A model generated the notes under the pieces. The model was not told the DNA's origin and searched no databases. It saw only the letters and a program-made list of their open reading frames with translations. Of a stretch of 64,000 nt of DNA, positions 2,823 to 40,748 are shown piece after piece. Position numbers and translations under genes: made by a program. The stretch lies in the NCBI GenBank assembly GCA_963971405.1, contig OZ020486.1, positions 28,233,419 to 28,297,418 on the forward strand. The letters are read 5' to 3'. This stretch comes from Psococerastis gibbosa. Lineage: Eukaryota; Arthropoda; Insecta; Psocodea; Psocidae. How positions within the stretch are numbered: position 1 is the first letter of the stretch; each line of letters opens with the position of its first letter.

Positions 2823-3154
2823 CAAGGCCGTAGCCAATGGAGGGGGGGGGGGCGCAGCGGCGATATCGTAACCGATGAGGTTTTACCGCTTTTGCTTTTG
2901 CTAGTTGAAAACTTATACCAATACCCCGACTTGGGCTTGTGAAATACCAAGCCCAAAGTCAATTTGTGGTTCATGGGTTCATGGGGGTTCAAACCACCCC
3001 CACCCCCCCCCCCCCCCGAAATGAAATGAAATGGCTTGACACTAGATAGAATCGGATTTTGAGGGGGAAAATAAAAACCAATAGGGTGTGTAATATCCAA
3101 TGAAATTTCTAACCCCCCCCCCCCCCCCGAAAAAAAATCCTGACTATGGCCTTG
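2823..3154. mobile_element. hAT-like MITE with perfect 8-bp target duplication
   Basis: The direct repeat GTTCCCGA occurs at 2815-2822 and 3155-3162. Between them the ends are imperfect inverted repeats, CAAGGCCGTAGCCA at left and, reading inward, CAAGGCCATAGTCA at right. The 332-bp interior has G and C homopolymers next to the ends and no transposase. An 8-bp duplication is diagnostic of hAT-type insertion. Confidence 0.8.
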
Positions 3155-6900: not shown

Positions 6901-8479
6901 ACATGGATACCGGTAAAAAATTAATTTTTACTTATTTCTTAAATTAAAGACATGGAAAAATAAACTGAAACGGGATTCGAACCCAAAACTCCACTTTGCC
7001 AGGATGGATGGTATGCTGACTACTGCCCCAATCCGTTCTTAAGTAATTCGGTGGATCGTTCGTAACATTTCACTTAATACCTTTTTTTACAAGCTACATA
7101 CTGAACGTTAAGTTCACTAACTCAATAAATGGATATATTCATATATTGTACTTTATTGCTTACCACCTCGAGGGTAGCCCTGCTGATCATTGTAACCTTG
7201 TCCAGACGCACCACCCTGCTGAGATGAAGCACTGCTTCCTCTTGGATTACTTTGCTGGCCTTGAAAATTCGTTTGAGACGAAGGGGCTCCAGGATAATTG
7301 GCAGTTGATGAGGGCCTGAAAGAAGCAGGGGTATTCTGGGAGTTTTGTTGACCAGGTTGCCCAGATGATCCAAAAGATGACGAAGGTGGTCCATATGACG
7401 GGGAAGGTTGACTACTTTGATTCGGAGGAAAGGAAGCTGTAGTAGATGAAAACGAGGGTTGGGTGGTGGAGCCCGTTTGCGGACCTGATGAGGGGGGTTT
7501 CGGTGGTCCATACGAGTTAGTGGGTGGGGATGGTGGCTGTGGAGGACCGTACGAACCGGAAGGGGTTGAAGCACTTCCTAAGGAATTTCCGTTGGAAAAA
7601 CCAGGGGGAGCATAGGGAGGGCTTTGACTATTGTACCCTGATTGCTGCTGTCCACTCTGTCCTCGAGTAGGTGGAGATGGAGGTGCCAAAGAGCCTTGTA
7701 AGTTGTTATTTGGAACATTTCTGTTAGGAGGGCCATAGTTAGACTGTGGCGTTGATTGTGATGGTGCTTGGTACTCATTTCGGGCATTGCTGTTTGACGG
7801 CTGTTGGCCGGCTGGGTAGTCTCTCTGAGGGGAGTAAGAGCCAGAAGGAGGTTGTCGACTCGCGGATGGAGGGCCGTAAGCCGCAGATGGTTGCTGAGGT
7901 TGTCGGCTCTGAGGGTTGTACGAATCGAAAGGTTGCTGGCTCTGTGCATTGTTGGATGCCGCAGATGCATCTGTTGGTCTTTGAGGAGCATTTCCATTAT
8001 AGTTGGGAGAAGGAGAGGATGGAGTTTGGTTTTGACCATTAGAGTTTGGAGCTCCATACGACGGAGATGGCGCCGATGGGGATGGGTTTGGACTGTTAGA
8101 GCTACCAAATGAAGGACCTTGTGAAGGTGGACCGTACGCCTGTGATGGCGTGTTGTAGCTTCCTGATCCAGCTGGGGTTGTTGGAAATTGATTGTAATTG
8201 TCCGGTGGTGAGCTTGCAGCCCGATTTGGAGGTCCATACGAATTAGATGGTGGCAAGTAGCTGTTAACGGGAGGCTCGGGTTTTGCAGAAGCCGCCGTTA
8301 TAACCAAAATTATTCCCACCACCTGGAACAGTAAATTAAAATGTTATTTTAACATTTATTTAAGATATTTTGGGATGGTTGGATGCGGAAAACGAATTGC
8401 TGACTAAATTCTTGTATATTCAAAGCATAGTAACAAAAATACATACCCTTGAAAATAATACTTTACATACCTTTAACAT
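3927..8479 (-). CDS. resilin: Pro-resilin, seven coding exons
   Basis: Coding exons, in minus-strand order: 8471-8479, 7164-8322, 6642-6679, 6197-6413, 4861-4928, 4313-4379, 3927-4036. All introns are GT-AG, phases agree at every junction, and the sum is 1668 nt (555 residues plus TGA). Residues 1-16 (MLKVVGIILVITAASA) form a signal peptide, followed by KPEPPVNSYLPPSNSYGPP, which closely resembles the mature N-terminus of insect resilin. Residues about 17-390 are a disordered elastomer rich in Pro, Ser, Gln, Asn and Tyr with seven YGPP and one YGAP. Residues about 408-470, in exon 4, form the RR chitin-binding domain (QYEFNYKV..., GQYNVLLPDGRTQVVDYQAD, GFRPQIKY). The tail is Gly/Pro/Gln-rich and ends ETGYRY, as in resilins. 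Known family role: secreted cuticle rubber, cross-linked through tyrosines and anchored to chitin. The start at 8479 is chosen because an in-frame ATG at 8521 lies upstream of the predicted transcription start. Repeats are YGPP-type rather than the fly YGAPGGG type. Confidence 0.93.
5049..5268. mobile_element. Foldback MITE in pro-resilin intron 4
   Basis: The inverted ends are TTTATAGTAGGCGGTTGCGG at left and, inward from the right, TTTATAGCAGGCGCTTGCGG; similarity continues to about 35 bp. The interior is AT-rich and has no open frame of note. The superfamily is not clear. Confidence 0.65.
5361..5754. mobile_element. Nested PIF/Harbinger-like foldback MITE, copy 1
   Basis: TAA lies immediately on both sides (5358-5360 and 5755-5757), the target duplication expected for PIF/Harbinger. 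Termini are GGTGCCCATTCCACCGACC and its inverted partner. An outer palindrome (to CATTCAAGACTT) encloses an inner inverted repeat (TTTCCATCGATCTCGCATTG). A second copy with the same two-tier layout is at 45874-46261 in opposite orientation. Inside pro-resilin intron 4. Confidence 0.75.
6966..7041 (-). repeat. tRNA-like sequence, probable SINE head or tRNA relic
   Basis: A perfect RNA polymerase III B box, GGTTCGAATCC, lies at 6983-6973 on the minus strand, with an A-box-like GGGGCAGTAGTCAGC about 45 nt upstream. The T arm pairs GGG/CCC around TTCGAAT, but I cannot fold a full acceptor stem, so a working tRNA gene is unlikely. It sits in pro-resilin intron 2. Confidence 0.5.
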
Positions 8480-9963: not shown

Positions 9964-9987
9964 AGCAATAACAAACAATTACTGAAA

Positions 9988-10180
9988 TGATGAAGCAGTA
10001 GAATCCGGGATGATCTGGTCGATCTGAAAGAGTACTTCTAAACGTTTCGCCAACATCTGCGGTCAACATCTTCAATGAAACTGCGTAGACTTCACATATT
10101 ATTGTGTCTCAGGCGCAGCTGCTGCTGATGCTACTGCTTTACCAAGTAACTCCAGCCGTGAAAGTATTTTTGTAATTAAA
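9988..10180 (-). repeat. Hammerhead-bearing dispersed repeat, copy 1
   Basis: It opens (plus strand) with ATGATGAAGCAGTAGAATCC. The minus strand at 10075-10044 reads UUGAAGA, U, stem GUUGAC, loop CGCAGAU, stem GUUGGC, GAAAC. Stem II pairs throughout using G-U pairs, but the core C3 is U, so catalysis is doubtful. Ends with TTTTTGTAATTA. Confidence 0.6.
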
Positions 10181-10498: not shown

Positions 10499-10695
10499 GA
10501 TGAAACATTAACATCCGGGATAGTAGGCCGTGGTCATGCTGGAATAGTGCTTCCAAACGTTTTGCCAACATCTGCGGTCGACATCTTTAGTGGAGCTGCG
10601 TAGACTTCGAAGATTGTAACTGAACGCCCATCATCATCAACCCGGATTCTACTACTTCATCACGTAACTCCGGCCGTGGAAAGCCTTTGTAATTA
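10499..10695 (-). repeat. Hammerhead-bearing dispersed repeat, copy 2
   Basis: Minus strand 10590-10559: CUAAAGA, U, GUCGAC, CGCAGAU, GUUGGC, AAAAC. Two core guanines (G5 and G12) are A, while stem II and the first three pairs of stem I (CCA with UGG) are intact. The other side has GGATTCTACTACTTCATCA. Confidence 0.6.
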
Positions 10696-11944
10696 TGTAA
10701 GTTAAGTTTGCTCGTATGGAACTAGAAACAAGTGGAAAATAAATGGATGGGCAAAACTATTTTCATATAGCGAATAATCGCACATAGAATGTGTAAAGAA
10801 CCGGTGGGTCTATAGACAAGTGAGCCCATACATGCTTTCCTATTTATGAATTAATATAGCGGGTACCGTGGTATAATATGAGTAGTTAGACCCCTGCCCT
10901 AGGGTTAGATTTTTTACTTTCTCTATCCCAAATCACTGAATTGATCGATGGGACGACTGCGTAGCCAAGAACGGACATACCAATATACAATATTACAACA
11001 CAGTAATAATGGCAGGGTATGCAAAGCATTGAATGAATTATCCATAATTTTTTTAATACAATATTTTTAATTCAAACCCAACACTTCGTTTCGGAAAGCA
11101 ACTTGTTTGGCTCTGCTACTCCATTTAGCACCTAAAACATGCCTGAAGCTAGAAAGCATTGATATAAAGGTTCCGCAGAATCGTTATTTTTTCAGTCATT
11201 TTTCTTGAAAATTGAGTCTCTTTTAATTTTTTGCCCATAGAACCATACTATCAAGGGGCAAGCGACCTATTGGATTTTGGTTACATTAATTAATAACAGC
11301 AGCACAATCATGTGAATCGAAAGAAAATAGTTTGAGCCGTTTTTAAGAAAACCACATGACTAATAAAAACGACATTTTTTAATCGGCAGCCCTGAAGCAA
11401 CGTCCTAAAAACTCGGTTTTATGCAACTGCTTAAGTTTTAACAATCAAGTGTGTGTTCGCATGAAGAGAGAAATATGCATTGGGAATTAAAGTGAATTAT
11501 TTGATGCACGCTTTTGAACGAGTTCTCTAAAAGGCTAAGTAATTAGAAGAATGAGATAGCATTGTACTATTTGGTATGTGTGCAGGGAAACCCGTTAAAT
11601 TGCCAGATGCTGATAGCTGATAGTGGAGAGGGAAATCTCAACCATTTGCTCAGTAGCCTAATTAACAAGGAAAACAGCCCCGAGGAAAGGTGTAGAATGA
11701 ACAAATCATGCAAACTAATTTCAATCATTTCGAATTCCGACTACCTACCTGTAATGCGCAACTTCGATGAGGCAAGATTTGAAATATTATTTTATACGAG
11801 CTTATAGCGTACACCTAATAATAGTTTATCTTCAAAATAGTTTATCTACAAAATAAAGCACTATTCCACAAAATAAATAAAATTTCTATAATAAGACAGC
11901 TGTTTCTGGGGTGGACACCATCTTTAGGCAGATTTTGTGGAATT
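10696..11944. other. No gene recognised
   Basis: AT-rich. CAAGGGGCAAGCGACCTATT at about 11253 echoes the LINE family A UTR (CAAGGGGCAAGCGACCCCCC), so part of 11040-11420 may be an old copy of that UTR. Confidence 0.45.
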
Positions 11945-18159: not shown

Positions 18160-18370
18160 TGATGTAGTAGAATCCGCGCACATCCAAGCGTTTCATCAAC
18201 ATCTGCTGTTGACATCTCCATTGTTTGTTCCAGGATTTTTTGCCAATACTGTATGTAGACTTCGATGATTGTATCTCAGAGACTGAGTAGCAACAGTTGC
18301 CTACAGATCGACTGGAATCTATACGGCTTCATCATGTGACTCCAACCGCGTGATAACCTTTGTAATTATA
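18160..18370 (-). repeat. Hammerhead-bearing dispersed repeat, copy 3
   Basis: The ends are inverted: TGATGTAGTAGAATCC at left and GGAATCTATACGGCTTCATC at right. On the minus strand stem II is GUCAAC with GUUGAU, changed at several positions relative to copies 1 and 2 yet still pairing. The core is decayed (AUGGAGA; GAAACGC). Confidence 0.55.
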
Positions 18371-18722: not shown

Positions 18723-19196
18723 CAGACATCGCTAATACCATGAAAACAGGAAAATAGCAACCTTACAACAAAATTGTGATCAAGTGATATGTGTGCAATA
18801 GCCTGAGATTTATTTATAACAGTACAGTACAGACATGCCGTAAGTGTACGGTCTATGGTATGTACACTATGGTAACTTGTATAAATGTACTGTACATAAT
18901 TCTGTGCACGCTTAGCTCAGTATTCGGAATGTACGGTCCCATAAATTATACCCTAAGCGTGTTCCAGCTGCAGTTCGAACTGCAACCAATTAAATAACAC
19001 TGAAAATTGTTAAAAAAATATATATATGTACAATTTCGCTATCGTTAACAACAATTATTTTTATTACAAAATTATTTATTAATGAAATTAAAAAATTAAA
19101 TCCCACATTCTCAAATTGTACATCGGAGACTACGTAAAGCAATTATTGCAATATTGTGCGTATAGCTCTTGTAGATACAATCTCGGAAGTCTGGGC

Positions 19197-19250
19197 AGTA
19201 CCGCTGAAGATGTCGACTGCAGATATGATGGCGAAACGTTTGGAAGTACT
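19197..19250 (+). ncRNA. Hammerhead ribozyme-like motif, intact core (repeat copy 4)
   Basis: Parts in order: stem I strand AGUACCG (19197-19203), CUGAAGA (19204-19210), an extra U (19211), stem II GUCGAC (19212-19217), loop, stem II partner GAUGGC (19227-19232, one A-A mismatch), GAAAC (19233-19237), GUU (19238-19240), then stem I partner UGG, bulge AAG, UACU (19241-19250). All core residues of the consensus are present, and the predicted cut is after 19240. Stem III is only the self-complementary ACGU, which would favour a dimeric form, as reported for Penelope-associated hammerheads. An extra base between A9 and helix II is, to my knowledge, tolerated in some viroid hammerheads. The surrounding repeat ends GTGATTCTACTTCCTCATTA near 19290. 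Activity is inferred. Confidence 0.5.
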
Positions 19251-19542
19251 CTTTCAGATCGACCAAAACCTGTGATTCTACTTCCTCATTAATAGGCTAC
19301 TTATAATTCTGGAAATACATGCTGCTGGTATCTATGAACCGAAACAGCTGCCTATCGGCTATCACGTGTCTTTACCGGCAGCCTGACGTACATTTTAATC
19401 TAATATTGTGCGAATCTTCAAACCCTTAAAAATATTTTGTTTTGAATGGTATAGGCTAGGTTATCTATGTGTTATCCTGACAATGAGTTTTATTTTGTTT
19501 TATAGCTTGCATACCTTTTGTTTTATCTGTTTTCAATCGCAC

Positions 19543-19680
19543 TTGACGATGGCGTGAGCCGAAACCGGTTGTGAATTTTTAATTTAATTTTATTCGTAAA
19601 ACTATACAAAGCTATTTTAACAATGAGTGACAGCAAGTTTTACAAAGTTACAAAGGAGACTATTATGTTTATAGGTTACC
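19543..19680 (+). repeat. Penelope-like terminal repeat fragment with compact hammerhead-like motif
   Basis: 19543-19569 reads UUGACGA, U, GGC, GUGA, GCC, GAAAC, CGGUU: a three-pair stem II closed by a GNRA loop. It matches hammerhead consensus except C3 to U. Flanks CAC (19540-19542) and GUG (19570-19572) can form stem I; ACCGGU is self-complementary like a dimeric stem III. Downstream ATTCGTAAAACTATACAAAG through GTTACAAAGGAGACTATTAT recurs at 40.6-40.7 kb and weakly at 33.19 kb. The link to Penelope-like elements is inference. Confidence 0.4.
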
Positions 19681-21440
19681 TATCAATATTTAATTTCGAA
19701 ATTGATATTGAATGATTTAAAAAGTTAATTACTAACAATTGATATAAAAGTTACATTTGAGCCTACGAATTATGTATATTTGGGCATTGAGCGCAGTGTG
19801 AGCTAGCAGACCTACCACTTAAATACAGTTTTTTTTATATATTTTATATATATTACATAAAAAGAGTATTGTACTCACCTTAAGCTTGCTAATCTACGAT
19901 TTAAAATAAAACCCCTACCGAAGAATGTTTGGTAAATTAAAAAAAAATCAATTCAATATTATTTTATTATAGCCTATAATTAATTCATTTTGATTGGCAG
20001 TACTGAACACATTATCAGCAGTTCGTGAAAAGTCATAATGTATGGTTTGCAATAACTGCTAATATATAAATACATATTGGCAACCATTCTTGTCGATCAT
20101 TGGTTACAGTTCTTGCCGATCATCGATCACCAATCTTGTTGTTCATTAGTTACGATTATTATTATTATTATTATATTGATCCAATACAATACGATAGGTA
20201 TCGTGTTATTTGTTTATTTGCCAATAGTGGCCATTCTTTTCGTTTACAGGTCCCCTCAATTTGTTAACATTTATAGTTATAGATCCAACATTAGGAATAT
20301 CTACCTCTCCTCTGTTATATATTTAATTCTGTTGTAGCCTATATGAATGTACTATATGTATATGGTACGAAGTAGATACCTAATGATAATTATTTGTATA
20401 TACAGATATACATGGTTTGCCTAACAGAATCAGGGGCTGGAAACGTTAAGTTCTCCTTACACCCATACAATGGTGTTGCCAGGTCTAAAGGTCATAAAGT
20501 TCGAAATAAATAAATAAATTTTTTATTGTTGTGTTTGTACTTGTAAAAAAAAAACTCCATGCAAAACCAAACTCAGATAAACTTGTCCTCTGCCATCTTG
20601 AATTATTTTGTTGCCACATAGGTTGCCTACCTACAATTTGAAAAAATTAAAAATACTACTGGATTGGCAACCCAAACATTGGTATCAGTGTCGAATGGTA
20701 GGGGGCCTCCCCCCTGAAATGGTAAATTGTAAGGCGAAGTTAACTAATAGTGAGTTGTTGTAATGCATAATTTTCCGGATACCTAATAGATGATCGTCAG
20801 GTGAACAGTGAGTGGTAAGCGGTTTGGTTGGTAGAATTCAACGCCCACGGCAAGTTGATAGCTGGAGGTTCCAAAAAAAATATTTTATGTGTACGTCACT
20901 GATTAGTGTGCTTTTAGTTTTAACTAATCACTCACTCCCAGAGAAAAAAGTGAACCGATACATGATTTCCTATTAATCAATAACTACACAGTAGGTACCG
21001 AGATGGAGGACTTATGGGCCCAAATTGTGGCCTGGGGCTCGATTCCAAGATCATGCATACACAGGGACTGAGATAGATAAAATGAGTAGTTCCATGGTAA
21101 ATAATTGCTATAGGGTTAAATTTCGGTTGTCTCGTCAGGCAGATCAATATAATACAACAATGTCGGGATGTCCAATGTATCGGGGCGTAAATTATGCAAA
21201 AAAAAGCACCTGTTTGGTTTTATTAGTCAATTTTCACCCTATTTAAAACCTAAATCGTACCTGACGTTAGAAGGCATCAATAGAAAAGTGAGACTATCGT
21301 ATAAATAGGAAGGCAAAAAGCTATAATTTCATATGACTTGGTGAAATATCAGATGGGAGTAGATTAAATACACTCACGCACCCTGACAACTTCTTAGTTG
21401 GCCCCTGAAGAAAGCAGGCAGCCGGTATCTTTTTACTTCC
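19681..21440. other. No gene recognised
   Basis: AT-rich, with an ATT run. No convincing exon. Confidence 0.5.
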
Positions 21441-40604: not shown

Positions 40605-40748
40605 GTTACTCCAAAGGTTAAACATAATAGTCTCCTTAGTAACTTTGTAAAACTTGCTGTCACTCATTGTTAAAATTAACTTTGTATAGTTTTACGAATA
40701 TTTTATTATTATTCGTAAAACTATAAAAAGTTAATTTTAACAATGAGT
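40605..40748. repeat. Head-to-head inverted copy of the 19.6-kb repeat
   Basis: Arms 40662-40700 and 40710-40748 are 39-bp inverted repeats with one mismatch and a 9-nt spacer. Each arm reads outward TATTCGTAAAACTATA.. to AACAATGAGT. The left side continues the homology to the 19.6-kb copy for a further 50-60 nt (AGTCTCCTTAGTAACTTTGT); the right arm stops at GAGT. Confidence 0.75.

Follow-up and report, generated by a model that had tools for sequence, protein, structure and literature searches.

Positions 19197 to 19250 on the plus strand of a 64-kb stretch of the Psococerastis gibbosa genome (herein the window, meaning the whole stretch of DNA analyzed) have the appearance of a hammerhead ribozyme. 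The locus raises two questions: whether this likeness is more than fortuitous, and what kind of element carries it.

The motif in the window and its relatives

Direct reading of the window places CUGAAGA, GAAAC, the GUU triplet and the seven stem I pairs where a first-pass annotation had reported them. The features of the motif are the following.

19197..19250, plus strand: hammerhead ribozyme motif, from direct reading and a helix descriptor; cleavage predicted after 19240
19197-19203, plus strand: stem I 5' strand, AGUACCG
19204-19210, plus strand: core box CUGAAGA (C3 to A9), with 42-45 of 45 aligned segments (37 loci) agreeing at every position
19210..19212, plus strand: AUG, the ORF start codon in relatives; its A is A9 and its U the unpaired "extra U" at 19211
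19212..19232, plus strand: stem II and loop II, GUCGAC (19212-19217) with GAUGGC (19227-19232)
19233-19237, plus strand: GAAAC
19233-19239, plus strand: GAA and the self-complementary ACGU (dimer-type stem III)
19240, plus strand: U17
19241-19250, plus strand: stem I 3' strand, UGG-AAG-UACU, with an AAG bulge; seven stem I pairs in all, including one G-U

The hammerhead core is complete, as had been claimed: C3U4G5A6N7G8A9, G12A13A14, A15.1-U16.1 and H17 are found both in the window and in the related segments described below. The annotation was also accurate in giving stem II six positions with five pairs and one A-A mismatch, and in describing stem III as a short self-complementary ACGU of the dimer type. 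Stem II has the G10.1-C11.1 pair, with one extra U preceding G10.1, and is kept through compensating changes between families described below. A bare core is not rare; CTGANGA N{6,34} GAAAC has two matches in the window against 0.64 expected. A descriptor comprising stem II, a palindromic or hairpin stem III and three stem I pairs has this site as its sole match in the window, whereas 300 first-order Markov versions of the same 64 kb yielded three (∼0.01 per copy), a result that is indicative only, because the descriptor was written after the motif was known. At that rate, chance matches are to be expected over the 409-Mb genome, which favors a first rival explanation: a chance likeness inside a repeat, with its conservation arising from protein coding in two frames.

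The repeat around the motif is indeed dispersed, giving at least 42 matches when used as a query against the 409-Mb genome (40 of 925 candidates scored); a better preserved copy gave at least 114 (40 of 3114 candidates scored). The copies (family 1) share a ∼180-bp unit, most with an inverted partial unit upstream. Within the window, the following stretches belong to family 1 or to a second, similar family; they are named here as pLTRs of Penelope-like elements (PLEs), an assignment argued in the next section.

9986..10122, minus strand: family 1 pLTR fragment whose core, UUGAAGA, lacks C3
10498..10621, minus strand: family 1 pLTR fragment, core CUAAAGA and GCAAAAC, with an inverted partial arm at 10638-10696
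18180..18297, minus strand: family 1 pLTR fragment, strongly decayed
19173..19290, plus strand: 5'-truncated, decayed family 1 pLTR copy, unit position ∼23 to ∼150, its right end near the tail-less boundary
19465..19672, plus strand: pLTR copy of the second PLE-like family, with a hammerhead-like motif in which C3 is replaced by U
40619-40748: another stretch of the second PLE-like family

The copy that holds the motif is 87% identical over 19173-19265 to the unit at L004:1479-1669 (blastn), and its alignment over a further ∼25 bp, up to TCATTA, was judged by eye. A full core is found in none of the three minus-strand fragments. Elsewhere in the window, 2846-2983 (plus strand) matches U4 spliceosomal RNA (57 bits against an Rfam gathering score of 46), and a 389-aa ORF in a bacterial-code listing occupies 7153-8322 (minus strand) with no Pfam match at E≤0.01; six window ORFs compared with Pfam gave no match at this threshold.

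To describe the family we aligned 45 segments from 37 loci, the window included; L009 (the same place as L004), L039-L042 and matches not spanning unit positions 44-108 were left out. The positions of GAAACGUU are kept in 41-45 of the 45 segments, and the majority sequence, CCACUGAAGAUGUCGACCGCAGAUGUUGACGAAACGUUUGG, forms six of six stem II pairs (GUCGAC/GUUGAC) and three of three inner stem I pairs. Two details of the annotation therefore describe the window copy and not the family. The A-A mismatch is real but private to this copy, the majority sequence having all six stem II positions paired; in the window copy, unlike its relatives, a 2-nt insertion together with substitutions has damaged both stem II and the ORF frame. 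The seven-pair stem I with its AAG bulge is likewise present here, but family 1 has three inner pairs beside the core and outer pairs in some copies only: the first outer position holds a letter able to pair in 6 of the 45 segments (A in the window copy, L002 and L005; G in three others) and a U, unable to pair, in the other 39. We infer that the window copy belongs to an older layer of family 1. It is a decayed fossil that probably does not cleave, and it is unlikely to have any useful activity.

Architecture and coding partner of family 1

The arrangement of family 1 was tabulated for 36 copies (L002-L008 and L010-L038). An upstream inverted arm, head to head with the unit, is present in 27 of them; the 3' end of the unit lies at position 180-184 in 23 of the 36, and the outer end of the arm at 146-150 in 16 of the 27 arms. 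The two fixed ends are thus ∼32 bp apart and define the PLE "tail", whereas the inner end of the arm varies from unit position 1 to 107 in this tabulation. A pLTR, an adjacent inverted partial pLTR and a tail of 30-40 bp, the arrangement characteristic of PLEs, are therefore all found in family 1. Candidate target-site duplications of ∼9-13 bp were noted by eye at L010, L011, L012, L013 and L017, and one is doubtful at the window copy.

Arm inner starts were also compared with the hammerhead cut site, which corresponds to position 89 of the unit. When BLAST ends are used, 6 of the 27 arms start at 82-90; under a strict rule of six consecutive matches, one starts exactly at 89 and two at 86-92. 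The remaining starts are scattered between 1 and 113. Another five inner ends lie near the loop II palindrome, starts at 69 being accurate only to about 68-73. The 27 starts give no clear sign of an excess of element junctions at the cut site; ends at 68-73 and 82-90 are possible self-priming or template-switch spots, their positions being rough.

An upstream internal sequence, used as a query, gave at least 86 matches (40 of 903 candidates scored) and led to 20 further loci, of which L055 is the same place as L019. Several ORFs at these loci contain LYGLPKIHK, GSPISPVVANFYME and YVDDTF, which we take to be RT motifs, and several have a GVY...YIG motif (L063, L074 and others) and ...NFNRKEEGLKVNRIWYPALKK. 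All three ORFs scanned match Pfam RVT_1 (L070, 1e-10; L074, 5e-11; L063, 4e-5), the L063 match being a partial RT below the curated cut-off. A GIY-YIG-type motif, GVYRIPCSCGEVYIG, is visible in the ORFs, and the Pfam GIY-YIG family gave no match at E≤0.01 in the same three. The ORFs of L074 and L063 run into the pLTR, so the RT ORF is linked to it; no family 1 unit was found in the L070 locus, and the L070 ORF had no tblastn match in the 64-kb window. Among 25 segments from the RT-linked loci, two of which repeat segments of the 45-segment alignment, the majority sequence is the same 41 nt, though the stretch that follows has changed.

The start of the ORF is seen in L076, a different copy from those that supply the RT evidence (L070 and L074). 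Here the unit continues without a stop into MSTADVDETFGSSLSLRPRPISPDSTGSSFDSGRESLCSYIVRLYGEEVHH..., reaching the stretch that lies 5' of the RT in other copies. The ORF (MSTADVDETF...) has no earlier Met in frame, and its AUG is the A9-U-G of the hammerhead; cleavage would therefore fall 29 nt inside the ORF. The unpaired U that had been noted before stem II is present but is not a mere extra nucleotide, being the U of the element's AUG. Of five upstream stretches, L076 is the one with an ORF that begins at this AUG: in L080 the layout is alike but the frame changes, in L078 the ORF is 5'-truncated and adjoins an inverted pLTR, and no unit was found in the upstream stretch of L079.

In some relatives the motif also contains a stop codon, a UGA located in the 3' half of stem II. 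It terminates the incoming ORF (...SSTEDVDRRC, then stop) in six ORFs from 5 of the 20 RT-linked loci (L063, twice; L067, L068, L072 and L073), where the frame arriving from the endonuclease side crosses the pLTR before reaching it; the count covers the two longest frames per locus, at most 420 letters each. Since this UGA and the next AUG both lie inside the ribozyme, tandem ORFs would overlap there by 20 nt. Related copies thus read the region in two frames, as the chance explanation holds, and the conservation of the region in family 1 may stem from these overlapping coding frames.

These observations bear on two other readings of the carrier. One is a non-autonomous metazoan retrozyme, a small element that forms circular RNA and bears a type I hammerhead: the copies are short and mostly non-coding, and passages of PMC7229834 describe animal type I hammerheads as often residing in retrozymes. 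The hallmark of such elements, direct tandem repeats of ∼170-400 bp without an ORF, is not what the family 1 loci display. No direct tandem array of the unit occurs in the 36 tabulated loci and no complete direct tandem in the stretches examined; the arrangement is instead head-to-head inverted with a tail, and copies continue into an ORF with RT and a GIY-YIG-type motif. On these grounds the retrozyme was rejected as highly improbable. The other is a DNA transposon with terminal inverted repeats (a MITE), which the inverted flanks around the unit at first resembled. It was rejected as scarcely credible, given the variable inner end of the arm, outer ends that differ by the tail, and the linked RT ORF. 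The carrier of the motif is the pLTR of a PLE. The proposed link to PLEs accordingly held, as copies lead into an RT ORF within a PLE architecture, but the description of the carrier as small and non-coding did not: it is the pLTR of a coding element and overlaps the start of its ORF.

Covariance models, folding and further families

Searches with Rfam, the check that the annotation had proposed, found no hammerhead. The window gave no hammerhead match at the gathering level, none of the Rfam families matched 19000-19700 at E≤10, and the genome-wide searches with RF00163 and RF00008 gave no hammerhead match (weak below-cut-off matches appeared in 11 of 14 and 7 of 14 control prokaryotes); 7 and 5 loci compared with the Rfam hammerhead models were also without a match. 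With Rfam models, then, the outcome that the annotation had named as refuting its reading occurred in every search. The chance explanation would account for this silence. The same models miss L076, L080 and L084 as well, in which core and stem II are intact, and we therefore read the result as model insensitivity and not as absence; Rfam was set aside as arbiter for this reason. Its models seem insensitive to hammerheads in which stem III is tiny and one nucleotide is added.

Folding energies do not single out the motif, the free energy being no better than that of shuffles. Constrained to the hammerhead, the predicted energies against the free minimum are -9.4/-18.3 kcal/mol for the window copy, -11.1/-15.1 for L022, -11.0/-13.5 for L076 and -13.6/-16.4 for L084, so that the monomer hammerhead fold lies 2.5 to 8.9 kcal/mol above the minimum, with the window copy the worst.

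The pattern CTGABGAHGN{5,24}CGAAACGT has 874 matches genome-wide (442 + 432) against 6 (3 + 3) in a reversed control, an excess that argues against a chance likeness; the pattern bars A at position 7 and therefore omits the window copy as well as family 1 in its usual form. The first 100 matches, all on contig C1 and classed by string rules of our own, comprise 24 that are family 1-like, 58 of a third family (CUGAUGAUGGGAGUAGCACCCACUCCCGAAACGU), 6 with CTGATGATGAACCTGTATACGAAACGT in which stem II does not form, and 12 others. Family 3 also speaks against chance, since it has the same core with other codons and a six-pair stem II of other letters (GGGAGU/ACUCCC). Among the first 100 matches, 81 are 34 nt long (54 of them distinct; the 19 of other lengths were left out), and 440 of their 486 stem II positions are paired, whereas 2000 shuffles of the 3' arms averaged 353 and never exceeded 384; few independent changes underlie this pairing evidence, because the matches are mostly from two families. 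Only two inner pairs are seen in stem I of family 3. From its AUG (MGVAPTPET...), one family 3 copy in L081 is open over the 80 codons covered, and the frame is shorter in the second L081 copy and in L084. The two L081 copies lie head to head (L081:706-1098), and where they join, beside stem I, there are short tandem repeats, GGCTTAGTCCTGAGAAGGGCTGAT. A further match, L083 (C1:44153300-44154100), reads CUGAGGA-AG-GCCCAAGUUGGGC-GAAACGUA, forms five stem II pairs after an insertion of 2 nt and possibly represents another family.

A covariance model built from 21 family 3 sequences (R1) matches five of six family 1 loci at E≤0.004 and the sixth, L002, at 0.41, so the proposed check, fruitless with Rfam, succeeded with a model from another family. 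The same alignment used as a sequence-only model, with no base pairs, matched none of the six, and R1 matched neither of two family 2 loci. Its best match in the window is 19204-19239 (16.7 bits, rough E of 0.036), where alignment is confined to the core boxes plus a single pair of stem II, so that the match is no evidence for stem II of the window copy; the second best, at 14.7 bits, spans 13 nt and has no stem.

Family 2 is abundant and shows the same layout as family 1, inverted arms included. Of 1749 first-look candidates in the 409-Mb genome 40 were scored, and the best 39 non-self copies are 95-97% identical to the window copy of this family. The motif reads CAC UUGACGA U GGC GUGA GCC GAA ACCGGU U GUG, with its helices kept; all 12 copies read lack C at position 3 (U in 11, A in one), and the corresponding AUG is directly followed by a stop (AUG GCG UGA). 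A PLE-like family has therefore spread without the standard hammerhead core, a further point in favor of the chance explanation.

Known Penelope-like hammerheads and a possible role

Minimal type I hammerheads of PLEs in general were reportedly described by Cervera and de la Pena in 2014. According to excerpts of PMC6155905, all available PLE sequences show hammerheads, usually minimal ones without helix III. Those described there and in passages of PMC7229834 share with the present families an almost absent helix III and a place in PLE terminal repeats; the present families are further ones, and the overlap with AUG and UGA is recorded here. The satellite and retrozyme hammerheads of newt and axolotl, in the same excerpts (PMC6155905, PMC7229834), have a very short palindromic helix III like that of family 1 and cleave better as dimers; they differ in belonging to direct tandem, non-autonomous repeats and in having reported loop 1-loop 2 contacts. 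For anatomy, the portion of PMC3846280 on Penelope of Adineta vaga describes a ∼200-bp pLTR containing the first ORF codons, an adjacent shorter inverted pLTR, a 31-bp tail and a target-site duplication, much as the ∼32-bp tail and variable inverted pLTR of family 1, whereas the word "ribozyme" is absent from its main text.

The closest counterpart is PAc, a Poseidon-type PLE of Anolis carolinensis (Frangieh et al. 2024, PMC11167929). As sections of that article report, PAc has a hammerhead at the pLTR-ORF junction that cuts 26 bp inside the ORF and needs protein for cleavage, its C3 and G8 mutants behave as expected of a hammerhead, insertion in vitro does not require cleavage, and the two fixed ends and inverted pLTR of the Anolis element are explained by two RT start sites. 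PAc and family 1 are alike in the hammerhead at this junction, the 30-40 bp tail and the RT ORF, which includes GIY-YIG in PAc and a GIY-YIG-type motif in family 1, and the cut predicted for family 1, 29 nt inside the ORF, is close to that of PAc; the host and the sequence are different. PLE hammerheads are thus already known, as is the position of the AUG from PAc. The main-text section of PMC11167929 says nothing of a stop codon lying in stem II; this is weak evidence of absence, since many journals were not covered. That family 1 has its motif at the same element position as an experimentally tested ribozyme also tells against a chance likeness, and we consider that explanation very unlikely.

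In our view the site is, with high probability, a 5'-truncated, decayed pLTR of a Penelope/Poseidon-type PLE, in intact members of which the pLTR-ORF junction can fold as a minimal type I hammerhead. The sequence itself shows the anatomy, a conserved core and stem II, and an ORF start and stop that lie within the motif; cleavage, action as a dimer, tandem transcripts and, by analogy with PAc, cleavage assisted by protein are what we infer for family 1. An intact motif would consist of stem I (CCA/UGG), CUGAAGA, the extra U, stem II (GUCGAC/GUUGAC), GAA and ACGU. A tandem PLE RNA would most probably carry one such hammerhead at each pLTR-ORF junction, and the ACGU of two copies could pair to complete stem III. 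The incoming ORF would halt at the stem II UGA, and a cut after U17, 29 nt into the next ORF, would divide the multimeric RNA into units and part each AUG from its ORF.

A more speculative proposal, which we regard as doubtful, is that the hammerhead acts as a stop-start switch. Folding and cleavage would compete with translation, because the UGA and the next AUG both lie inside the ribozyme, and cleavage, perhaps with help from the element's own protein, would turn an mRNA into template RNA by severing each AUG from its ORF.

As for the window copy, it is an ordinary fossil of a transposon. The results suggest that the Rfam hammerhead models miss hammerheads of the PLE kind. For the elements, the families described here extend the PAc-type layout, in which the start codon begins with A9, to further PLE families and add that the stop codon of the incoming ORF also lies inside the ribozyme. 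The spread of family 2 without C3 agrees with the insertion of PAc in vitro without cleavage in the sections of PMC11167929 cited above, and with these two cases, one of them a neighboring family, the purpose of the PLE ribozyme becomes testable.
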